A stretch of DNA of 64,000 bases from the NCBI GenBank assembly GCA_021904315.1, contig CM038921.1, positions 14,538,146-14,602,145 on the forward strand. Reading direction: 5' to 3'. Made by a program: the position numbers and the translations under genes. Under the pieces are notes generated by a model, which was given only the letters and a program-made list of their open reading frames with translations, did no database searches and was not told where the DNA came from. The DNA is from Sphagnum magellanicum (lineage: Eukaryota; Streptophyta; Sphagnopsida; Sphagnales; Sphagnaceae). Of the stretch, positions 2,765 to 58,339 are shown piece by piece. Positions within the stretch are counted from its first letter, which is position 1; the number at the start of each line of letters is the position of its first letter.

Positions 2765-5007
2765 CTACTTTTTCTTCAGAGTGATCTTCATCTTCTTTGG
2801 TGCAGACACAGATGCCTGTTTCCTGTAAGCAGAGAAAATACCACTGGGAATTACAACTTCCCCTCCTTCCTTGAGTACCTCATTAGCTGCCTGTTTTTCT
2901 GTATCATTGGTGCCTGAGGAAGGAGATGTCTTCTCCAAGCTGACACCAGCTTGCGCTTGCAAGGGAAGTATCTTTTCTAGCACTGCATTCTTCTCCTCAG
3001 CATCTCTTAGCAAGGAAGGGAATGATGACGATGCTTCACCACTGTTCTGCTGACTCTCTTGCACAACTGGTACACAATATAACCCACAAACAACACCTGT
3101 TAGTTAACTCTTGTGAGAAATGGCTGAGACTTTTGTATAGCTGCAAATAATAATGGTTCAATCTCCTTCTCCAAAAACCCATAACCTTAATCTCAGTCAT
3201 ACTCACATGCTGAGATGAGGGCAGAAACCTCATCATTGGCTGCCAATTCAAGAGCTACCTCATTACGGTTATTTCTCAGTGTTGCATCAGCACCTGTATC
3301 ACCACCTCCCTCAAAACCAAAGTATCATCAGGTTACAGGTCAACTGACATAAGCCAAGCTCAATAGAATTGAGATGTGGTGCGAAGGATATTGAGATTCC
3401 AGATCTGTTAACATATAAGCAGAACAGGAAAAATGAGACAAAAGAGAAAAAAACACAAGAAACCAACCCTCAAAAAATGGAGAAAAGAAGAAAGTAGTGG
3501 GAACAACCACAACAATCAGGCACATTTTTCAGTTATCTTCAACAGTAGCATGTATGGGTAGTGAGCAGCTACCACAACATATTCCCCAACTTCATCAGCT
3601 CCCAGCAGTGCATTGCCTGGGGATCAATGTCATACACTAGAACCAACATATTATGTTTGTGTCACAAGACCATTTGTAGCAGGGAGACTCAGTGATGATG
3701 CTTGCTAGCTGAACAAAACAGAAAGGAGATGACCAAGGCAACCAAGAAGAAAGAGAGAAAACTGAAAAGGAAAAAAACCAGACAAGCAACCAAACACCGA
3801 AAGAGGAGGAGGCGAGAGAAATAACCACACATGACTTCAAGCGCATGAAATTTTTGAGGAGAAAATGGGTGGATTTGCAAAGCTCTGCATTCAGGATAGA
3901 CATCAACAGATATGCTGCTGAAAGATGCTGTCAAATCAGTGCTTGAAAGACAGATTTTCTTCCTTGATTTCTACCACATTTGTATCAGATAGAAAAAAGC
4001 TCAATCAAGAACATGAAATCCATTGAGAAGAATTACCCACACTTATTTTCAGACCCACCATTTCTCAGAAGAAGCTGTACAAGGTTGCCATGGCCAGCTT
4101 TTGCTGCCCAAAGAAGTGCACTGTCTCCTTGCTGCAGATGTGTAGCACACACACACATCACATTCTTAAGCTTAACTTTTGCTCTCTTTTGTCCCTAGAA
4201 ACCCAATTGCAAATGCAGCTCCCAGAAAGCTTTTTGTGATTAGGGATTTTGCAGAAAAAGATTGAAGAGAGAGAGAGAGAGTGCATAGCTGCTGTTATGA
4301 TGTGACTGACGGACCTTTGTTGTGGCGTTCACAAGAGCTCCATTTGTAATAAGAAGTTGTGCAGTGGCAAGCCATCCTCGGTCACAGCACCAATGCAGCG
4401 GTGTCCTGTTCCCCACCACTCCAGATGAAGCGGCTTTTTCTCACTGTCTGCATTCATTTGCACCCATTTTCTCCTCAGAGCAATTGTTGTTCGTTTCTTT
4501 CTCTCTCCTTTCCACTCTCATACTCTCCCTGAACATTCAATCTGATGATGCTTTTGATTCCTCTCCTCTCTGTCTCTCTCTGTTTCTTAGTTTTTCTTAG
4601 GGTTTTTACAGTTCACAAACTCCAGAAGAATGGCCACCATGAATCTCCCTACAACAATTGCAAAATTGGGAACAAACTCGAGTCACAAGCTCCGGTTGTT
4701 GCGTCAGCCAACAAACCCTAAAACTCTAACCCTAACAGAAGCGAGAGAGAAGGTACCGGCCCCAGGCATCTTGAGCAGAGAGGCGCGCACCAGCGGCAAG
4801 AAGCGTCTCGGCGGCTTCATAGTGACCGGAATGCATACAGAGGAGAGACAAAGAGGAGCGTTGGAAGGTGTCCTCGAGGTTGGGATCAGCGCCGCCCAGC
4901 TGCAACAACCGCCGCAGCTCCGCCAACTCCTTCTCCCTGAAGTCGACGATGCAACAAAGTCTCTGCAGACTAGTGCGAGCGGGTCCTGCATCGCTCAAGT
5001 TCTGCAT
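2765..5007 (-). CDS. Ankyrin-repeat protein, five exons, 267 aa
   Basis: Exons on the minus strand are 5007-4757, 4405-4315, 4131-4059, 3293-3207 and 3066-2765. All junctions are GT-AG and in phase, and the coding length is 804 nt with the stop. The start is the first ATG after an in-frame TAA 24 nt upstream. The product has about four ankyrin repeats over residues 35-160. Recognisable cores are GADPNLEDTFQRSSL, RTPLHWCCDRGW, GDSALLWAAKAGHGNLVQLL and GADATLRNNRNEVALELA. A charged, probably disordered tail of about 100 residues ends in a lysine-rich KKMKITLKKK. Exon ends fall near repeat boundaries, as is common in ankyrin genes. Ankyrin repeats mediate protein-protein contacts; no catalytic domain, signal peptide or membrane segment is visible, so a soluble adaptor is likely. 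The partner is unknown. Confidence 0.85.
4269..4282. repeat. (GA)n microsatellite in intron 2 of the ankyrin gene
   Basis: A short GA run follows the donor side of the second intron of the ankyrin-repeat gene. It is small and of no evident function. Confidence 0.7.
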
Positions 5008-5137
5008 CCTCGTTTTCTTCTGTCCCCCTTACACCTCAAAAAACCGCGGCTTTCCAAAAAAAAACTGATGGCTACGAACTTGCAACTACCACCCCTTCTT
5101 GCCCCTCGCAACTCGGCTTCCTCAGCTGATGTATAAT

Positions 5138-5163
5138 TGTGATCACAAGCACCCTAATGGAAA
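5138..5163. repeat. Short third copy of the element-flanking repeat
   Basis: The stretch GTGATCACAAGCACCCTAAT and the following GGAAAG closely match the start of the repeat at 5431-5456, 293 bp away. Similarity fades after about 26 bp. It shows that the repeat bordering the gypsy element exists locally outside the element. Confidence 0.55.
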
Positions 5164-5406
5164 GCCAATGATATAAGGCCTTTGTTTCTTGCTGTATGGA
5201 TAGTCACTTTCCATTGGAGAACTGTGCGACTGTGATAAAAATATGTATAGAATCATGTTAGGAACTCTAGGAACACATGTCTTGATAAAAAACAATTCAA
5301 GATAGATTGTCCTTTGCAAGGTGAGTCACAGTTTGTCTCTCAGCTTTTGCAATTGGTCAATGCTTGAACAGCACAATTATGATGAGACAATTGTGAGAAC
5401 TACTTG

Positions 5407-17865: not shown

Positions 17866-19500
17866 TCAAGCTGTTGTTGTTATGACTGCATAATTATTTA
17901 GAGCAGTGCTGATGGAAGGAGGAGTAGTACTGCTGCGAGGGTGGCTGTGTTCACCTTCATAGGTGACAATGAGCATGGATGAATCGTCCAAGGATCGCTC
18001 CACATGCTTCCTTGCAGGACAATTCCTCATGCTACTGCACTTGTAGTAACCCCTGCCAAGAAAGGAGAAGACACAAGAAAAGCTTAGAATTATCAAAGTT
18101 CCAGTCAAGAAGCTTTGTCAAGCAAGTTTTTGTCAAGCTTTCAGCTGTCAAGTTTCTTCTGTCAAGCTTGATATGTCATGCTTTTGTTTCTTCCTATACA
18201 AAACTACATGCATGGGAAATTGTGAAGAAGCTGTCAGATTGAAAGCTTCGGTTGGGGTTGGATCAATGGAGGAGAGAGATGGGTACCTTGGATGTGGGGA
18301 GCCTTTAATGGGCTTTTGGCCGTACTTGCGCCAGGAGTAATCATCAGGAGGAATATCAGCAAGCTTGTTGCTGATTGCTGGCACCCTGATTGTCCTCTTC
18401 ACTCTCAATTTTCTGTGTGCAAAGCCAAAAAAAAAATTCATTGTCCATAGCCAGAACAGCAGCAGCAACAGCAATTGACCGCAAACATTGATTCCCCTCA
18501 CTTTCTGTCTGTGGAACAAGAGTGAGGGATTAGGGTTTTGTGACCGTCAGAGAGGGGCTGGGAAGATTGAGTTTAACTAATACCTTCGCTTGGAGCAATG
18601 GCAGCGGCCTAACCGCTCACTGGTACAAGAATGGCCGCCACCATTCTCATCAGGTTTGCTGCTGCAGGATTTCTTTTTGCCTGCTGCTGTATGCACCGCA
18701 GCTACAGCTTGGGGTAGTAGTAGCCAGCCGGCTGCAGCTTGATTTCCTGCATTCAGATCCTGCTGTATGTTGGCAATAGAGAAGGACTTGTTGGTAGTGG
18801 AATGAAGCGGAGGACGATGATGTCCTCCTCCTCCTCCTGCTCCCGAGGTCATGGAATTCTCCAAGCTCATGCTCATGCTGCTGCTGCTGCTACGGTGGTT
18901 TTGTTTCTCCATTTGCTGTTGAATTTGCAGTTGGAGCTGGGGATGGAGCTGCTGCTGCTGCTGCTGCTGTTGGATCTGTTGTTGGGTATGTCGATACTCA
19001 TGCGGAGGAGGTGGTGCAGCAGAAACCACTTCACTAGGCACCTCTTCAAGAAATTTCACATTCGTGATCTCCTTCTCCTTCAGCTGCTCCTTGGACAGCT
19101 GCTTCCGCTTCAACTCATCCTCTTGCGCGAAATTGGCACTCTGGAAGAACACATACTCGAAGCCTGCAATCATAGGATTGATCCGAGCTGCAGTTGCTCT
19201 CCGAAACCTGGCGTGTCCCCTACAGCTCGTCCGACTACTACACAACTTCGACACCTGCACTTTCTGGAACTTGCAACGTTCGGCATCAGCGGCACTCATC
19301 ATCCTCTCCTTGCCATGTCCACCAGCTTCTTGCAAGCACTGCTGCTGCTGCTGTTGTTGCTGCTCCTGGTGCTGGTGCGATAACATCTGCAATAACCTCC
19401 TAGCACTATCTATCCCCATCCTCGCCGCTTCCTGCGCTTCGTAGCTGCTCATGTCCCTATCCCTCTTACCTAAGCTACTATACTCCATAACCTCCACCAT
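17866..19500 (-). CDS. WRKY transcription factor, group IId, three exons, 409 aa
   Basis: Exons on the minus strand are 19500-18584, 18412-18287 and 18052-17866, all GT-AG and in phase. The WRKY domain (about residues 325-385) has WRKYGQK at 333-339 and a C-X5-C-X23-H-X-H zinc finger (C353, C359, H383, H385). It is preceded by the group IId plant zinc-cluster region ending [15 protein letters not shown], a likely nuclear signal. The second intron splits the domain at SPHPR/GYYKC, the R-type position. The N-terminus ([20 protein letters not shown]) and HARFRR near residue 100 fit the IId N-terminal helix and calmodulin-binding motif, though the latter is diverged upstream of HARFRR. Glutamine tracts lie at 46-54 and 173-184. 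The family binds W-boxes in the nucleus and acts in stress, defence and development. Confidence 0.95.
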
Positions 19501-19639
19501 GTCTACAAACTGCTGTCTCCACTAAACTAAGAAGCTCAGCTCAGCTCCTTCTTCTTGTTCACGTTCTCGTCTCTAGCTCCTCCACCTCCTTCTCCACCAC
19601 CTCGTCCCTAGCTCCTTCTTCTCCACCTGGTCTCTAGCT

Positions 19640-22697: not shown

Positions 22698-23071
22698 TAG
22701 CATCTCCAGCGGTGCTCAGTATGTGATCCTGTAAATTAAAATTGGATGAAGAAAAGTCAAATTACGTTGGGAAAATGGTTTTGGCCCTACATAATTCTAC
22801 AGTTTGCGGTGGCTGGTAAATGACACAGCATTGGTGTGGACAACAGAAAAGAGTGTAATAAATATGATCTGAACTACTGCTGCTCCGTGTTTCTTGTTGG
22901 CCTATCATAATAATTCGTCCAGATGGTTTGCTATTACCTAGTAGTTCCACACCTATTTGTTGTCCACCAGTTTCAGTTGTACGGGTCACCGTTGCAAAAA
23001 AGAAAATAACTAAACTTGGATGTGAAAAGTATTTTTGCAGGGTCACATACGGAGCACAGCTACAGATGCTC
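22698..23071. mobile_element. PIF/Harbinger-type MITE, copy 1
   Basis: The 374-bp element is flanked by TTA at 22695-22697 and 23072-23074, the target duplication typical of PIF/Harbinger elements. Its left end TAGCATCTCCAGCGG is inverted-similar to the right end CAGATGCTC. It aligns along its length with 25614-25980, sharing AAATTGGATGAAG, AAGAGTGTAATAA and GGGTCACATA. It has no coding capacity. Confidence 0.85.
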
Positions 23072-23074
23072 TTA

Positions 23075-24504
23075 GCTACGGAACATGAATCCAAGGAAAG
23101 AAAAGTGTCCTGTCCATGTACCATCCATGGTCTATCCATGGTGGTGGTATGTTTGTGGGTGCTCATTTGGCGTGGACGGTGGTCTTGGTCTGTCCTTTAA
23201 GGTGGGCCTCAAGGTGGGCTTCATGGCCTTTTTTTGGATACTTCAAAAAAAGTCAGCTCAGCTCACTCCATTATCTAGTTCTTTCTGTAATTTGAGAAAA
23301 CTTGGACATGGGGAGTCTTGATTCATCCATTCATGTTCAGATGCCATTCATTGACATGACTCATGATAAAAGTAGGTCAAAGGTTGCTTGCACATTCGAA
23401 TTTTGGACATCTCCATCTCAAGACCACGTGGAGATGATGAACAGCTCCAATGGAGTTATGTAAGTCAATCCCAATGGAACGGTGCTGATGATGTTTTGAA
23501 ATTTTTTCAAACAAACATTGTCCATGGCAAAAGAAAATTTCACTCGTGGGCATATTTTAACATGACAATTGTAAATTAGTCACAAACAATACTTTATTCC
23601 CATTTGGGTGGCAATTTCTTTCTTTGAAACAAAAATTAACAAAAAAAAGCACTAAGCCTGCTGACTCTTACTTAGGAGACTTAGAGTTGGACGATGAAGC
23701 TTAAGCTTAAGTTTGACCATTGCAAAATTTGTTGCAACAACATTGAGATTGTTGGGCCTCTAACCTTCCTTCTTGAATGTGTAGAGAGAGATCTGGACAA
23801 TTAAAAAGAATTTGATGTTTTTGAGTGAAAGAGACAAAGGTTTGACCTCTTCATTTTGACATTCCAATTCAATCTGCCTCTAACTAACTTCCAGGTCAAA
23901 TGTGGTGATTTTGTTTTTAAAAATTTGACTCTTTTTTATGGTGAAATTTGGCTACTTTGTGAAATAGGTTTTGAGAAAAACTTGGGAAAAATGTGTTTTT
24001 AATTAGTTGTGAATTCAAACCTATTCTGATTGTAAAACTTTGCCACTTTCGTAAGCTGCAATAAAATAGTAGTAAAGCTCAAGTTTTATAGGGGTTGGAG
24101 GAGAGTCTAAAGACTTCATGAAAACCCAACTTTCACCAAAGCTGCCCATATTTTGTAAACTCAAGGTTTTGTTGACAAAGAATTTATTCATCATTGATGA
24201 TTGGTTTGAGGATACATTTTTGTGTTATGATAATGCACATCCTCCACATACAAAACGTTAATTTGTGCTAGATCTTTACAATTTTTGGAGGCATCTTGGC
24301 ATAGCAATACATCAATCTCTATCTTTACATTCCATAGATGTACACTTGAGAGTGCTTCAATCCGAGGCATAAAAAAGGAGGTGCCATTGTACGGGAAGAA
24401 AAGAAGTTTCCAAAGAAAGGAACTCATTGAAAGGAGATAAAAACAAACATGTGACTAAATCACAAAGGAAATAAAAAACATGCATTGACCACCCAATGAA
24501 TTAC
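23075..24504. other. Spacer without recognised gene
   Basis: No protein family was recognised on either strand. Short open frames lack support. Confidence 0.5.
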
Positions 24505-29153: not shown

Positions 29154-30428
29154 CCAGTTAAATACACTTCCATTGTGAAGGAGTAGCCATAATATCCCCT
29201 TCCCTTTGCAAAGAGAGATATCCGTGCAATTAAGGTGCCTTCCAAGTTCTCTAGGGAATTTTCTCAATTGCTTTACCCTACATCAACTTGCAAGGCTTTG
29301 TTCCAAGAGAAAGTGAGACAGCCAAAATAAGAGGAAGAAAATGTGAAAAAGAGAGAAGACATGGTCCAGAGTTAATTATTGAATTTGAAATCTTACTGAT
29401 CTAGGACTAAACTAGAAGCCCTCCTTCAGCTACCTATATAACATATAAAATAATCTGAATTGGTAATTCCTTCCTCTTCAAGAATTTCAAATTCATGTCA
29501 ATTAACCTTAATTAATGTTCATGCTTTGTTGTCACTCATGGGGTTTGATGATCACCATTTCTCTTTGTAGTAATATGTGATGAAGCTATAATTATGCCAA
29601 CAATACATACTACCAACGCTTGTCCATGATCGTTCTTGAAGCTGAATACTTTTAATGTTTTGGATCCTTTTTATAGCTTCAAAGTAATGAAATTTTATTC
29701 AATGTCAATGTCAAATGCTGAAACTCAGCATTTTAATGCACAAGGTTCGAAAATAATTATAGTAGCCTAGTTGTACAAGTAGGAAGAGTGAAAATATATA
29801 TAGCAGCAGCAGTGGAGGCGCTCCAGAAAAGGGAAAGACAGGATAAATCTCAGTTTATCACCAAAATTGGTGGAAAAACTAGTTTGGGGCCAAGTTATTT
29901 CGTTTTGTAAAATTTTCATTCCAAGTTACGTGTTTGATGCCCTATTATGCTGAAACTGGCCGTTATTGCCCCCTGATCGTGGGACTTTTTGGATGACTAT
30001 CTCTATTATGTAGGAAAAAGTAATTGGAAGATAAAAACCCTGAAACTGAATGATTCTTTTTTTTGGGGAATTAACATTCTAAAAGAAGTTTCAAATTCAT
30101 TTTCTTGGCCTTGAATTTGATTTGATAATTGTTTTATGTCTTTTGTGAAAATGGTCAAAAGCTTATCATACAGGAGAGACTCATCATGTTAAAGAAAAGC
30201 ATTCATGAAAGCTTTTTTGTCACAATGAGAGACAAAATTTTAATAATTTCTTACAAATCACAAGAAGGGTAAGCCAGGTAGGAGTACCGATCTGAAAAAA
30301 CACACTCAGATGGGTGACGCACACCATGAGCATGTGTGCACTGTACATTTTGACGGCGGCTTGATAGATCCACATGTGCAAGATGGTACTTAAGTGGGAG
30401 ATCCATTTTCCATTGTGCAAGTGAAAAT

Positions 30429-30623: not shown

Positions 30624-32832
30624 CGGTCTAAGTCTCATAGAAGAAGTCCACTTTCAAGTGTATGTCCCACATTATCAGCACTAGTAGTAATAGAACGTTC
30701 ATGAATATTCCCACATGTCCCTGTATTCCTGAAATGTTAGATTTAAACTACGTTTCCTGGTTTTTAAAAATAAAATGAATATGACATTTTTTTATTAGGT
30801 ATCAATTCATGTTAATTAGGACAATTTGGGAATGATTAGGGTTATATTGAAAGTTGTTAAGGCATACTTGGGGTTGTATTTTAAACTTGTTAGGATTGAT
30901 TGAAACTATCTAAGACATTAATTTACGGATGCAATAAAAATTGATTAAAGTTTATTATGATTGACTTAATGTTGTTAGGAATTAAGACATAAGGTAACCA
31001 AACCTTCAATGATGAAACCATGCCAATCATAAATAAACCAAAGCACCCAAAAAGGGGGAATTCAAGGACAAAATGGAAGGACCCATGTCCAAGAAGGCAA
31101 AAGAACCACCCAAGAGGGCAAACCACAAGGGGAACATCAAGTTGTCGAACCCTCACATATCGCAAGAAGCATATCAAATAAGGAAAGGGGAGAATCTTTT
31201 CAAAAGATGCCTATCCTAAAAGGACCTTCACCTATTGCAACATTATGTTTCAAAATAGAGACTACTTGCGCATGTTATAATGTCATTAACACCCTATGTC
31301 TATAAAATGTGCATAAAATTGAGAGAGAAGGGCCTCCAATGCCCTTTGTTCCCCATGCCATGTTGGCACATCAATGAAAAAAATTCATTCGCCTGCTAAT
31401 GTAGACATTCAAAAACTTCGACAACTAAATGGAGAAACATGTTTATTGGGAATTCATCATGATAAAGACCTTCCTTTGCCTAAGCCACAATTATTGCCAC
31501 AACCCCATGAGAAAAAGTAACCCGCAAAATTAAATCAACTTAGGTGGGGTTGACAATGACAACATATGCCAATGTGTGAACACCATCAACCGATAACATA
31601 ATGTCGATTCAATGATGTGAAGACTATAGGGCAAGGGGCAAAAGGACATGTGTCTACTTTTGCAAGACATGAAATCCTGCATCTTTCGCAATGGCCATGT
31701 AAACATCTCACACAACATTATGCGAAGCCATCTTCTCCCCACCATGTGCACAACAAAGAAGGTGAATCCCCATAAGATCCAAAGGCTGGCTATAAATGTA
31801 GTGTGACACCCCAAGGACTAAAAGATGGGAAATACCCAACCTAATGTGCAATGTGGTGGAGAAAACATCTAAAGGCAGGCAAAAAAAAAGGAATGATTGG
31901 GCAAGTTAACAACCAAGTGTTTGCACTTGGCCCTACACACAACATCAAACATGTTCAATGTGAATTAAAAGGTAAATTTAAAAAGATGTTAGTAAAGGAA
32001 CGGTCGTGCAATTGCTTTGAAATGCTCTCTTATAGGCGATTTGTGCTTCTTTCAATCAATTGTTCAAAAAGGGGGACACATGTTATAGTCCGAAGGGGAA
32101 GAAGTTCTTTCACTAATCTTACATGTGCCTAGAAAAGAAGGGCCCCCAACTTGTTCACATTTATCACCTCTAACAAAAATGGACAAGAATCCACAAAAAC
32201 CTAAAAGCTATGATAAGGGCTATTAAAGAATAATACCCCAAATTAGAAGTTGGAGTAATGGCCTTTAAAGAAATCAACATTACGTCCCCATTGGAAATGG
32301 GGAGAGCCCCTTGTTGACAAATAAGGGGCTTCAAGGTGTTCCAAAGAGCATTGACCCAAAAGTCTTTCAAATACTCCCATCGAGGTGGAGTTAAAATTGA
32401 TGATCTAACTCTAAAAACCTACAAGGGGGAAGGAAACAATGAAGCAAAAAAAAAGGCCTATGGATGAAACATTGAGAAAGGATACCAAAAGCCACCTAAA
32501 TGCCCCTTAATCTTAGGAGCATGTTTACATTTCGAACATCTTCATTTAAAACCTCATGTAAAAATAAAAAAGTGAAGGAAATAGAGCCAAAGGGCCAAGA
32601 ATTTTGATGTCACCAAAAGGGCAAAAGAATTTGGCAAGGGGATGAACCCAAGATGTAAGTTAGATGGAACCTAAAGTGAGCACTTTGTAGGGTTAAACAA
32701 AAAATCCTTCAAAAAAAAATTGAAAAATAAAATGATCAAAAGTGAATGTGACAAATGTGAACATTAGACACCATCTTTTAATAAATGGAATTCATCCATA
32801 ATATTCGTCCATAACTCCTAGATAGATTTTAA

Positions 32833-53399: not shown

Positions 53400-54127
53400 A
53401 ACAAAGCTAGTCAAGATGATATCAAAGGTAACCATGGATGATGAAAGGCCATCACAGGGTGACTATACCTAGAAGATCAAAAGGTAGATGAATGAGGGGC
53501 AGGATGAATAGTTCCAGCCTCCCATGACATCCAACTACCATAAGTTCACCTGCATTCAAGTGAGGCCAAAACACTCTCCTTGCTAAGGACTCTGTTTCAC
53601 ATTAGACCAAGTCCATGAGCAATAGTAAAATGTAATGCAAGCTTCATAAAACTTCAAGCTATGCTGAAATGATGGGTTGATTCTTTGACAATTATACAAG
53701 CCTCCCGTATGAAAACTTACCATATAAAAACTTTGTCAAGAGGTGCCACAACATGAAAATTTCTGAGTGTTGTCTGCAGAAGGGAAGTAGTTTTTATCCA
53801 TTGCTACTTCAGACCACAGGATTGCTCTCCTCAGTCACACCTGCTGCAATGGCAATCAAGCAGTGCAGCACTCGATGATTCTGGTTGGCATGGACTGGAG
53901 TCCCACATCCCCTGAGGTGCAAAACCCTGTAGCAGTTCTGTTGGAGGATAAGTTTGGCTGCCTGACAATTTGTTCTTTTTCCTTCCATGAGGCTTAACAG
54001 CCAGGATTGTTTCATTATGGCCTCTTGTTGGTTTTGAGTTTCTAACTGCCCGCAACTGTGACAGAGGTCTTGAAGGAGGATGTAGCACTATCTCTGATTT
54101 TTGTTCTGGAGATGCCCTCTGTGGTGA
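53400..54127. other. Probable 3' flank or untranslated region of the cysteine-rich gene
   Basis: Base composition is higher in GC than the spacer and resembles the adjoining gene. Two open frames (53809-54015 and 53831-54088, minus) overlap in different frames, and neither has a recognised domain, so a 3' untranslated region or a spliced terminal exon are both possible. Confidence 0.4.
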
Positions 54128-56248
54128 TCACTCCACACGATGTTGAACTTGCAAATTTTGCCGGTATTGTGACTTCAAGTACTTGTAGAATGCATTCTGT
54201 TGACGTCTTGGGTGTGGATCTTCTGATGGCACTTTGGCATTGGGTGATTTTGCCTTTGGGTATGGTGATAGGGACCGTGTAGCATTCTTCACAAGCACAT
54301 CACGAATTGGAGAGAGCCTTGGTCCCACTGAAGACAGTGGCTTTGGAGATGAGTAATTTGGCAGTTTGAGAGCTCCAGTGTTTTCTGGTGAGCACGGCAA
54401 AGGATTAACTGCATCTGGCTCCAGAATCGGTGACTTGCTTGAGCAGGTAGGAATGGGGCAGCTACACATTCCACAGCAACATGAGTGAACAGAGCTGCAA
54501 AATGGGCATGTGATTGTGATAAAGCCAGTGTTAGTACATTTGTTCATTCCACAGCAACAATGGCTGGTGACGTCTTGTGCACTCTCAGATGGATTCCAGC
54601 TAGTGAAGTCCTCTGGTTGGGGTTTCAGTTCCAAGGCCTTTGTAGAGTACGTCTTGAAACTCTTGGAGCGCTGTTTCCTAGGAGGCGTTTGAGGAGAGGC
54701 ACATCGCAATGGACTGCATGACCTCTCTAACCCAGTGGCCCCATCATGGGCGGGGTTGTATTGCTCTATTGGCTCCTGATCTCTCAGTGGCTTAAAATAT
54801 GTGTTGTAATGAGGCAGATTAATATCAGACAGGCAAGGAGTTCTAGGGGACGTACTCTGACTTTCTATCCTCCCAAGAACCACAGAAGAGTCTAATATAT
54901 GGACTGAATTACCACGCTGGTGACACTCACAATCTCTGCATCGTGGGCTCTTACAGTCTGGTGAGTTGATCTGAGTAGAACACACAGAAGACTTCCAGGA
55001 GCCCTTGGAAGTATGGCACTCACAATCTCTGCATCGTGGGCTTGTACAGTCTGGTGAGTTGTTCTGAGTTGAACACACAGAAGACTTCCAGGATCCCGTG
55101 GAATTAGGGCACTCACATTCAACCTGTTGCGGGCTTAGAACAGGGCACTTGGGTGAGGATGCCAAAGGCTGATCAATGCAATTTACCTCTCCACTGAGCA
55201 ACTCTGCAGCAAGGGGGAATCGGAATGGTAGACATGGAGAACAAGGAGAAGATTGGAGGATTGGTGGACAAAGAGGGCTTGCCACCTTATGGCACTCACA
55301 GTCTATGCACCTTGGGCTCATGCGAGAGTCTGACATGCACCCAATAGAGGTTTCTTTTGCAACCTGTTTGCAATCTGGACTAATCTCCGCATCACAGGCA
55401 GCATCTGGTTGGTTTTGGTGTCTTCCTCTCAACGAATTGTCTGCACAAGCTCTTGGAGGAGGGAAACGGGAAAGGGGAGGAGAAGGACAACACACACGGA
55501 AAGAAGTTTGAGGGATTCTAGTGGAACTAGGTAAGTAGAAGTCAACAGGCTCTACAGACATTGGGGTAAGAGGTTTTGAGCAAGGCAAGTGTAAGTCATC
55601 ATGCTCTGAAAGTGCCAGAGAAGAAAACCTGAATGACCACTCTGAGCCAGCAGGAGTATGAGGTCTTGGGCTTGGCAAGTAGACATCAGAAAGGCATGCA
55701 GATGGTTTTGGGCACAGACAAAGTTTTGGTGGAGCTGGTGGGGGACATCTTGGGAGAGGTGAGGAACAGTGTCCAAGGTCCACATAGGAGCAAGGATTGG
55801 GGGACTGACAAGGAGGCAGGTATAAGTCATCATGTTCAACCACCCTCCTGGCCACGGGTAGATGGCTATCTTTACAATCAGGGTAGAAGCCTTCATATGG
55901 TGTATGCAAACCAGGGGTGCAGTCTACTGGGCCACATTGAGGTGAACTACTGTCACACAAGCATGGACAGCAGCATTGCTGATCCAAGTATGTGCATGAG
56001 TCACACCCATAACCACATTTCGGGGGGCAATCTGGAGGACCAGTGCCCCCCTTCATGTTCCGCTCTGGTTCTTTCAGCCCGATGGAGCTCAGAATCTCTT
56101 GCAGGTTTTTGTTATTCCTGCTTGAAGTCCATCTGGGACTCCCATTGCCATGGAGCTTCACATAAGCCCAGAAGGCCTTCTCATTGGTCTGAAAGTGAGT
56201 ATAAGTGGAAATCTCTGGGCATGGCTTACGAGCTCCTTCCTCTGCCAT
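54128..56248 (-). CDS. Cysteine-rich repeat protein of unknown function, single exon, 706 aa
   Basis: ATG 56248 has an in-frame TAG 9 nt upstream, and the frame runs unbroken to the stop. I do not recognise the family. About 65 cysteines (roughly 9 percent) are present. Visible parts are: an N-terminal block (13-58, YTHFQTNEKAFWAYVKLHG, then WTSSRNNKNLQEILSSIG) that looks folded; a cluster at 74-110 (CGYGC, CCCPCLC); a Pro/Ser-rich region (136-240) with repeated D-x-Y/H-LP motifs; SPRCxDCECH three times (312-320, 403-412, 434-443), two of them within 31-residue tandem repeats; a double CCCGM module (564-602) with CPFC between; and a basic end with AFYKYLKSQYRQ (686-697). There is no signal peptide or membrane segment, so it is probably intracellular. 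Metal or zinc binding is inference. Confidence 0.8.
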   Translation of the reverse strand: MAEEGARKPCPEISTYTHFQTNEKAFWAYVKLHGNGSPRWTSSRNNKNLQEILSSIGLKEPERNMKGGTGPPDCPPKCGYGCDSCTYLDQQCCCPCLCDSSSPQCGPVDCTPGLHTPYEGFYPDCKDSHLPVARRVVEHDDLYLPPCQSPNPCSYVDLGHCSSPLPRCPPPAPPKLCLCPKPSACLSDVYLPSPRPHTPAGSEWSFRFSSLALSEHDDLHLPCSKPLTPMSVEPVDFYLPSSTRIPQTSFRVCCPSPPLSRFPPPRACADNSLRGRHQNQPDAACDAEISPDCKQVAKETSIGCMSDSRMSPRCIDCECHKVASPLCPPILQSSPCSPCLPFRFPLAAELLSGEVNCIDQPLASSPKCPVLSPQQVECECPNSTGSWKSSVCSTQNNSPDCTSPRCRDCECHTSKGSWKSSVCSTQINSPDCKSPRCRDCECHQRGNSVHILDSSVVLGRIESQSTSPRTPCLSDINLPHYNTYFKPLRDQEPIEQYNPAHDGATGLERSCSPLRCASPQTPPRKQRSKSFKTYSTKALELKPQPEDFTSWNPSESAQDVTSHCCCGMNKCTNTGFITITCPFCSSVHSCCCGMCSCPIPTCSSKSPILEPDAVNPLPCSPENTGALKLPNYSSPKPLSSVGPRLSPIRDVLVKNATRSLSPYPKAKSPNAKVPSEDPHPRRQQNAFYKYLKSQYRQNLQVQHRVE
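54924..55117 (-). repeat. 93-bp in-frame tandem repeat in the cysteine-rich gene
   Basis: Two copies with a period of exactly 93 bp (CGTGGG at 54942 and 55035) encode 31-residue units containing GSWKSSVCSTQ and SPRCRDCECH. A third, partial SPRCIDCECH copy lies near 55.29 kb. The frame is kept. Confidence 0.88.
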
Positions 56249-57505
56249 TGGAGATTTCTAAGTCAAGTCCCTTCTTTCCATTAGGCCTTATACTGGTTTG
56301 CAAATATCCAATGAGAAAAAAGCTATTGGTTGTTGAAGCAACTAGCTCCGTGTGAGCTTGGAATGGCCACACATTTGATCCTTATGTCTACTTTTGGAGA
56401 CAGAATCTTTTTCCAATGTTCTGTTGCTTCTCTCTGAGCTGCTTCTTGGTGGTGGTGTTTCCTCTTCACTATCCTCTCCCTACAAGGAAAGTGAAGGTCT
56501 TCATAGCATGAAGTCAGTAAACTGGAACCATTAGATCCAGTCTCCAACAATACTTACTACCATCATGAACATTGAAACGAAGCAATTGGAGATCTCTCAA
56601 ACATCATTGGTCATGTCCAAATAAATGTTGGATAGCAATTTCTTCAGGATCCTTGGAAGCTCAGAATCATCATTCACGTTGAATGATCAAAATATCCATT
56701 CATTCTGCAGCTAAAATGCATGACAAGAGCCAGATATTGATCTTTCCAAAAGGTAAACAAAGTGAAGCCCACCTCTTCTCCTGAGATGTTGCAGAATGTA
56801 GACCTTCTTGGGGTCATGTGCAAGCAACTAGTAAACATATCTGCTTCAAAGTTCAAACTACGTGCTCATCAGATAAGAAGATAAAAGTGCCTGCTGCAAT
56901 GGGAGGGGGCATAGTGTCTAACAATTTTTGCAGACAATCCTTCAATCCAAAGGATCCTGTCCATCATGGTAATGAATGAAACTGCATTCTCCCCTGTTGA
57001 GATGGTCTAGAACTGAGGCTTACATTAACTAAGCATTTGGCAGTCTCTGAATGTGAGAGTGACACAGGCAGTAATAGCTTTTTCCAGCAACTGCTCCCTT
57101 ATGAGAAACTGGCAGCAAAAATTTGAGAAATTGAGAAGTTTTGCTCCTCAAGGTCCTAAAAGGCAAGTGAGATTACCGAATTCTTAGAATTGTGTTGCAA
57201 ATGTTTCCTACAGTTTTACTTATGTATCCGTCTTTCTTCCCCTTCACTTCATGCTCTTCCTCCTGCTCTCCCTCCACTACTTACTTCTATTCCACATACT
57301 TGACATTCACGCCTCAAATATCCTGACCGGGAGCAAGGATCCAAGTGAAGTACATTACACATTGGATCTGATCTCTCGACGACAGACGTGGAGTGTGACG
57401 TTTACTTGATCATAATGAGAAGAAAATTGATACAGTTCTTCTTCCCCCCAACTTCGAAAGGGCACGCATAAATCATGAAGGAAAAGGAAAATAAATCCTA
57501 ATAAA
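56249..57505. other. Upstream region of the cysteine-rich gene
   Basis: The sequence is less AT-rich than spacer. A 75-codon open frame (56323-56550, minus) has no recognised domain and may be leader sequence. No clear TATA box was chosen. Confidence 0.4.

Positions 57506-57508
<3 letters not shown>

Positions 57509-57549
<41 letters not shown>
57509..57549. repeat. (TC)n microsatellite upstream of the cysteine-rich gene
   Basis: A run of about 20 TC units, reading GA on the gene strand, about 1.3 kb upstream of the start codon. GA repeats in this setting can bind BPC/GAGA-binding factors in plants; a role here is inference. Confidence 0.85.
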
Positions 57550-57553
<4 letters not shown>

Positions 57554-57917
57554 CACGCTTGCATGCAAATCCTGCAACCATCATGCAATTTCTTGAAGAG
57601 GTTTGTGAAGAGAGATAGATTCTTAATCAGCACTGACTAGTATGAGTGAGAGACTTACATGAGTTCCAGGAAGATTCGAATGAAATCGGATATATATAGA
57701 AAATATTTCTTCACTGCAATTGCACACCGATTTTATTTTATTTGGCTGCAATTTTCATTCCTTCTTGCTTGTGTCGTTCCCGGAAGCGAAATGGAATGGC
57801 GATGGCGTTGGAGCGAGCGACAAAGCAATGTGCTTGCAAAACGCGAAGGGACGTAACTCCCAAAAGAGTGTGATGGGGCCATTGGCGCTACGACGGCGCC
57901 CTAAATCGAGGTCTCAC

Positions 57918-58000
57918 TTTTCAGGTCCCAAGGTCCAAGTGGAACCGGCTTTCAGGTCCCAAGGTCTAAGGAGAACGGCAGTGTTTTTTTTAGGAATTTG
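57918..58000. repeat. TTTCAGGTCCCAAGGTC short repeat
   Basis: TTTTCAGGTCCCAAGGTCCAAG and CTTTCAGGTCCCAAGGTCTAAG lie about 35 bp apart, and two more copies lie at about 58278-58330. Each set ends in GGAGAACGG...CAGTGTTTT and directly precedes a TAGCCA-hairpin copy. Confidence 0.75.
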
Positions 58001-58145
58001 TTTAATACTGTAGCCACAGTGGCGATCATCCCTGGGAAGATTTAGCCAAATCTGGCTATAAACTAAATATGAAGTATGAATCTTTAATCATCATTTTATA
58101 TTTTTCGGCTCCAAACTGAAAACCAAATGTAGAAATATCTCAATT
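58001..58145. repeat. Dispersed TAGCCA-hairpin repeat, copy 3
   Basis: It contains CTGTAGCCACAGTGGCGATC, CCCTGGGAAGA and the perfect inverted core TAGCCAAATCTGGCTA (58043-58058), then AAATATGAAG and ATATTTTTCGGCT. Confidence 0.8.
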
Positions 58146-58339
58146 TTTACTAATTTCTTTCTCACTTGTGGCGATTGAAAACTTTCAAATTGACTTCAAT
58201 TTTATTTTTTAATTAGTAATTTCATTTTTGGCGAAACTTCAACATTAGAAGGAAAAAAAAAAGGCTAAAAACATGCTTTCAGGTCCCAAGGTCCGAGGAG
58301 AACGGGATTTCAGGTCCCAGTGTCGAAGGAGAGAACAGC

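Follow-up and report, generated by a model that had tools for sequence, protein, structure and literature searches.

An open reading frame of 706 codons in Sphagnum magellanicum, read on the minus strand of the 64,000-nucleotide stretch of DNA analysed here (the window, C15:14538146-14602145 of an assembly of 438,994,042 bases in 31 contigs), is, as judged from its sequence, a genuine nuclear protein-coding gene, and the frame of about residues 1-635 with its cysteines has been held by purifying selection between two copies in the same genome. The gene is probably one of two surviving open-frame copies, duplicated together with its chromosome, and its product is probably an intracellular, disordered, cysteine-rich protein. 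Metal-clamped scaffolding appears to be the most likely mechanism of that product, with redox sensing and disulphide cross-linking as live rivals. The features on which these statements draw are collected in Table 1.

Table 1. Features of the gene and its flanks, in window positions; residues are those of the 706-residue protein.
Feature	Position	Strand	Remark
Candidate promoter and first exon	57256..58255	-	CpG o/e peak; function putative
Predicted 3' splice site of the 5' leader intron, CTTTCCTTGTAG/GGAGAGGATAGTGAAGAGG	56479..56480	-	identical in C10
Open frame, 706 codons plus stop	54128..56248	-	stop-free homologous frame on C10
N-terminal block, residues 1-65	56054..56248	-	50/65 identical in C10, dN/dS 0.28
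Conserved block, residues 106-150	55799..55933	-	dN/dS 0.22; alignable in the C4 copy too
Four of five [DE]-hydrophobic-x-[LM]-P motifs, residues 141, 188, 218, 236	55529..55828	-	
SPRCxDCECH array, residues 311-443	54920..55318	-	includes the 93-bp tandem duplication
CCCG...CPFC...CCCGMC module, residues 564-609	54422..54559	-	12/12 cysteines kept in C10
Residues 640-706, open in the window, out of frame in C10	54131..54331	-	no third-position excess
98 further open codons in frame past the TGA, up to DCHCSRCD	53834..54127	-	

The frame begins with an ATG at 56248-56246 and closes with a TGA at 54130-54128, while the first frame of the plus strand of 54128-56248 contains many stops. When all six frames of 300 Markov-1 sequences of 2.6 kb were examined, the longest open frame per sequence averaged 128 codons and reached 227 at most, versus the 706 codons found here, and the length of the frame is thus not attributable to chance. 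Cysteine accounts for 63/706 residues (8.9%), proline for 95/706 and serine for 93/706, adding up to 251/706 for the three together, and the GRAVY of the protein is -0.60. SPRCxDCECH occurs at residues 311, 403 and 434, and CCCGM at residues 564 and 590. An earlier, sequence-only reading of this DNA had described a 706-codon frame with a defined start, about 9 percent cysteine, three SPRCxDCECH motifs and two CCCGM modules, all of which were confirmed, with the frame running from 56248 to 54128 on the minus strand.

Searching the assembly with the protein returned the window copy itself, a C10 copy split into two pieces with 63% and 57% identity, and a weak match on C4; the same three places (C15, C10, and C4) were recovered with the C10 protein as the query. 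Because scoring in such searches is confined to the best candidates, the number of copies is a lower bound; neither two whole-protein queries nor two pieces turned up a copy on C11. The C10 copy holds a frame of 613 codons with zero stops, and 360/596 aligned residues (~60%) are identical between the C15 and C10 proteins, the alignment of the two copies spanning window positions 57424-53726. At the C4 place (C4:19277500-19287400, about 4500-5280), residues 56-173 align in a frame that is open for 151 codons and flanked by stops on both sides, and a short N-terminal match to residues 28-57 (E 0.43) lies in another frame. This place probably preserves a third copy as a relic; alternatively, it may be a strongly diverged gene that contains introns.

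A 240-codon antisense frame at 55633-56355 on the plus strand overlaps the conserved 5' half. It was rejected as a gene on account of its five stops in C10 versus none in the sense frame, and is a shadow frame. The same comparison served as a control for the stop-free sense frame of C10.

The possibility that the 706-codon frame is a chance opening or a remnant of a transposon is regarded as extremely improbable, given a length far above chance, the conservation of the frame in the C10 paralogue (which contradicts such an origin), the lack of a Pfam domain, and the small number of copies found in the genome (two good and one weak, as a lower bound). What would favour it is the setting, since stretches of the window (for example 22699-23077 and 29680-29920) have matches at several positions within a 200-kb part of C10, in the manner of dispersed repeats. 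Of the 16 window ORFs of at least 130 codons, 9 were scanned, and neither these nor the 706-codon ORF showed a Pfam transposon domain. The surroundings of dead transposons claimed by the sequence-only reading may be reflected in the dispersed-repeat-like stretches and were not matched by any Pfam transposon domain in the ORFs just named.

Comparison of the C15 and C10 copies provided the evidence for selection. All indels in the shared frame (17/17, down to 54376) were multiples of three, the corresponding counts being 3/13 in the tail and 9/29 upstream. Over residues 1-628 (585 codons), dN was 0.262 and dS 0.507, giving a dN/dS of 0.52 with a bootstrap 95% interval of 0.41-0.64. For all 596 codons, dN/dS was 0.54 by LWL85 and 0.785 by YN00, so that the strength of the constraint is method-dependent, and the YN00 value counts against the best explanation, as does the dN/dS of 1.19 obtained for residues 226-300. 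Apart from the two blocks in Table 1, the remaining values were 0.49 for residues 66-105, 0.55 for 151-225, 0.68 for 301-400, 0.55 for 401-475, 0.41 for 476-560 and 0.35 for 561-625. In 1000 simulations of neutral drift in one lineage carrying half the divergence, about eight stops were expected and 0/1000 runs were stop-free. Cysteine was the best-kept residue, being retained at 47/58 positions versus 360/596 identical residues overall (permutation P 0.0005). The intactness of the frame, asserted earlier, is upheld, and the Ka/Ks check proposed at the same time, run here against the C10 paralogue, gave the above 0.52 (YN00 0.785), which is not near 1.

The constraint does not extend over the whole protein. 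Opposite window position 54352 (near residue 635), an indel of 14 nt shifts the frame of the C10 copy; past this indel, residues 639-683 still match stop-free in the shifted frame. Differences between C15 and C10 at codon positions 1, 2 and 3 were 0.31, 0.24 and 0.21 for residues 640-706, and 0.35, 0.40 and 0.28 for the tail past the TGA; purifying selection was looked for in residues 640-706 by comparison with C10 and no constraint was found. As the C10 copy is frameshifted and no third-position excess is seen beyond the frameshift, constraint is shown for about residues 1-635 only, and the earlier claim that the frame is under selection accordingly holds for these residues and is not borne out for residues 640-706. 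The probability of 98 open codons past the TGA by chance is about 1% (46/5000), and the DCHCSRCD at their end resembles the cysteine motifs of the protein; these codons may represent a former C terminus lost through the TGA. No evidence was obtained that the TGA is read through or spanned by a tiny intron; the comparison with C10 gave no coding signal in the tail.

Such observations also bear on the reading of the gene as a duplicate in decay that is turning into a pseudogene, its frame still open and its function being lost from the C terminus onwards. The frameshift of C10 near residue 635, the C4 copy with only 151 open codons between stops and its N-terminal part in another frame, the 98-codon extension that the window copy has perhaps lost via the TGA, the dN/dS of 1.19 for residues 226-300 and the overall YN00 value of 0.785 would all be in line with decay. 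This reading is nonetheless considered quite improbable, as the shared frame of both copies is devoid of stops and frame-breaking indels at a dS of about 0.5, and three blocks display dN/dS values of 0.22-0.35. In the preferred explanation, that of a functional gene, the extreme C terminus would be dispensable, or already lost in C10.

Upstream of the ATG, the leader at 57424-56768 and 56582-56249 can be aligned to C10 and includes a strong block surrounding the predicted splice acceptor at 56480, and this acceptor and the next 19 bases are identical in the C15 and C10 copies. The CpG o/e amounted to 1.02 and 0.62 in the two 500-base steps of 58255-57256 versus 0.05-0.35 across the ten others examined. 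The C10 copy has a peak of 0.60 and 0.53 similarly far upstream, against 0.00-0.44 in its other steps. The CpG peaks and the predicted acceptor suggest that both copies may be active genes with a spliced 5' leader. The leader could also hold an upstream peptide.

With regard to the origin of the two copies, Sphagnum has undergone two whole-genome duplications, with Ks peaks at 0.406 and 0.643, and its chromosomes 4, 10, 11 and 15 derive from one ancestral chromosome, C, according to PMC9946827. Taking contig number as chromosome number, the C15, C10 and C4 copies all lie within this group as given there, and the dS of 0.51 of the C15/C10 pair falls between the two peaks. A WRKY gene that also encodes a plant zinc cluster domain was observed in the window at 18151-19521 on the minus strand, both domains lying in 18151-18546; the WRKY exon probably ends there because only the first third of the profile was matched. 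The adjoining open frame at 18580-19521 (minus strand), taken as one gene with the WRKY exon, was used as the neighbour query and gave non-self matches on C11, C4, C10 (in two pieces) and C14, with four of the five rows in the group 4/10/11/15. Its match lies 0.38 Mb from the gene copy on C10 and 9.3 Mb from the putative relic on C4. With the copies and most of the WRKY matches in the group 4/10/11/15, an origin by whole-genome duplication fits, with local gene order giving no proof of it; these distances count against it, as does the result that, besides the gene itself, no collinear neighbours were found in the 200 kb around the C10 copy.

A further likeness to the same region of C10 was noted in the window at 31008-32514, where blocks are 71-72% identical to C10:4264630-4270234 and their order is not kept. 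This C10 segment ends 1.2 kb from the start of the aligned C10 copy, and the window block lies about 21 kb from the gene, on its other side. It may be a rearrangement or a dispersed repeat.

The protein was then compared with known families. Pfam gave no match for the whole protein, for the version read through the TGA or for six pieces, the sole row being one for GPS on the read-through tail, whose E of 0.059 fails the cut-off of that model. No relative of the 706-residue protein was found in NCBIfam, and none among PDB sequences for the whole protein and two pieces (all E > 0.4). Scans that detect close relatives only found no relative in viral contigs, and 7 stretches fitting a pattern in GTDB genomes, 0 of which were confirmed. 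The earlier statement that the protein matches no known family is consequently borne out within Pfam, NCBIfam and PDB sequences, and "orphan" denotes here the lack of a relative in these three; the family is possibly moss-wide or wider. The literature, as far as it was covered, yielded nothing on this gene, which the published gene set may well carry as an uncharacterised protein. Structure prediction had been among the checks proposed along with the earlier reading; AlphaFold models of the whole protein and of residues 9-70 were of low confidence (mean pLDDT 35.7 and 56.9, respectively) and gave no usable fold, the N-terminal folds contradicting each other (two helices versus strands and one helix); low confidence obtained from single sequences is little proof of disorder.

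More can be said of the parts of the protein. Residues 106-150 contain CGPVDC..GLH..Y...YP.CKDSHLP.ARRVVEHDDLYLP. Two of the three SPRCxDCECH motifs are carried by a 93-bp tandem duplication (54921-55106, 91% identical), across most of the first unit of which the C10 copy shows a 111-nt gap. The CCCG...CPFC...CCCGMC module sits within the block of residues 561-625 (dN/dS 0.35), and at its end, from CPFC to SKSPIL, 2/29 residues differ between the C15 and C10 copies. CxC was observed 10 times versus 5 expected (35/2000 shuffles reach 10), Ser/Thr-Pro sites 32 times versus 17 expected from shuffles, and [DE][LIVF]x[LM]P 5 times versus 0.12 expected from shuffles, the fifth of these motifs being at residue 475. 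Four of the five still fit the pattern in C10 (DLYLP, EVHLP, EFNLP, and DIYMP), the fifth being DFYLS. Counting against a scaffold are the choice of the [DE]-hydrophobic-x-L-P pattern after the sequence had been inspected, the retention in C10 of only 12/23 aligned Ser/Thr-Pro sites, and the CC pairs, which are not enriched (4 observed, 5 expected). The EAR/TOPLESS motif is DLNxxP; its identity with the D-hydrophobic-x-L-P array is doubtful because the C10 forms include DFYLS and DIYMP.

We infer metal binding and scaffolding because the cysteines are conserved and the motifs occur in arrays. The explanation put forward, in which we place somewhat less than even confidence, is that of a metal-clamped, kinase-regulated intracellular scaffold, a disordered Cys/Pro/Ser-rich protein encoded by a retained nuclear gene duplicate. 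The protein would be a flexible chain, disordered for most of its length, in which reduced cysteines of the CPCLC, CGPVDC and SPRCxDCECH segments, and above all the C-terminal CCCG..KC..CPFC..H.CCCGMC.C....C module, would bind metal, most likely Zn2+. Metal binding would create small ordered nodes along the chain, and all five [DE]-hydrophobic-x-L-P motifs, together with the numerous Ser/Thr-Pro sites, would serve as multivalent docking and phosphorylation sites. An intracellular location is proposed because a signal peptide is absent by eye, no hydrophobic stretch of that kind being present in the N terminus MAEEGARKPCPEIS. The metal-binding or scaffold role guessed by the sequence-only reading accordingly appears plausible.

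Disulphides or redox sensing would account for the conserved cysteines equally well. The cysteines might be disulphide-bonded in a cross-linked structural or matrix protein of a specialised moss cell, for instance a spermatozoid or spore, comparable to the cross-linked, Cys/Pro/Ser-rich keratin-associated and outer-dense-fibre proteins of animals; the combined cysteine, proline and serine content (251/706) is typical of such proteins and the cysteines are strongly conserved. We deem this unlikely in view of the N terminus, which lacks a hydrophobic signal-peptide stretch by eye, and of the CxC and CPFC spacings, which are closer to those of metal ligands. Likewise of low probability is a thiol-based redox or metal sensor that steers transcription or signalling via the docking motifs: it would account for the conserved cysteine clusters next to the arrays of Ser/Thr-Pro and [DE]-hydrophobic-x-L-P, and is weakened by the lack of any DNA-binding or enzymatic Pfam domain and of a known partner.

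A bolder extension of the metal-clamped scaffold should be given some consideration, doubtful as we hold it to be. The gene may represent a moss-restricted family with a new cysteine module, C3G-x2-KC-x9-CPFC-x3-H-x-C3GMC-x-C-x4-C, and a [DE]-hydrophobic-x-L-P docking array, a duplicate of which has been kept since one Sphagnum whole-genome duplication (over 100 million years) as a scaffold that depends on metal and is specific to peat mosses. Peat mosses are associated with hyperacidic conditions in PMC9946827. Should the module indeed bind metal and occur in peat mosses alone, it would constitute a new metal-binding module in the plants that form acid bogs, and would be a concrete candidate for what sets peat mosses apart. 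At the least, a supported orphan gene is provided together with a map of its selected parts (residues 1-65, 106-150, and 561-625), through which mutants and binding tests can be targeted.

Among known systems, the plant metallothioneins are short proteins of under about 100 residues with terminal cysteine clusters. The protein shares with them its CxC pairs and the lack of a visible signal peptide, and differs in its 706 residues, its CC pairs without enrichment and the lack of any matching Pfam model; membership of that family was rejected on its length and the missing Pfam profile match. With the keratin-associated and outer-dense-fibre proteins it has in common a repeat-bearing, Cys/Pro/Ser-rich composition, whereas those proteins are animal and no sequence match to them was found in Pfam or PDB. 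A faint likeness around CPFC to PDB chains of a transcription elongation factor 1 homologue and of p300/CBP TAZ2 (E 0.45-0.57) involves few residues at chance-level E-values. Orphan (lineage-specific) gene duplicates retained after whole-genome duplication are a known kind. Constraint in the present case is centred on the cysteines and three blocks, and local synteny does not prove a whole-genome duplication; like those duplicates, however, the gene has no library relative, two open-frame copies, and contigs that fit one ancestral chromosome group, and it appears to be a retained duplicate of an orphan gene.
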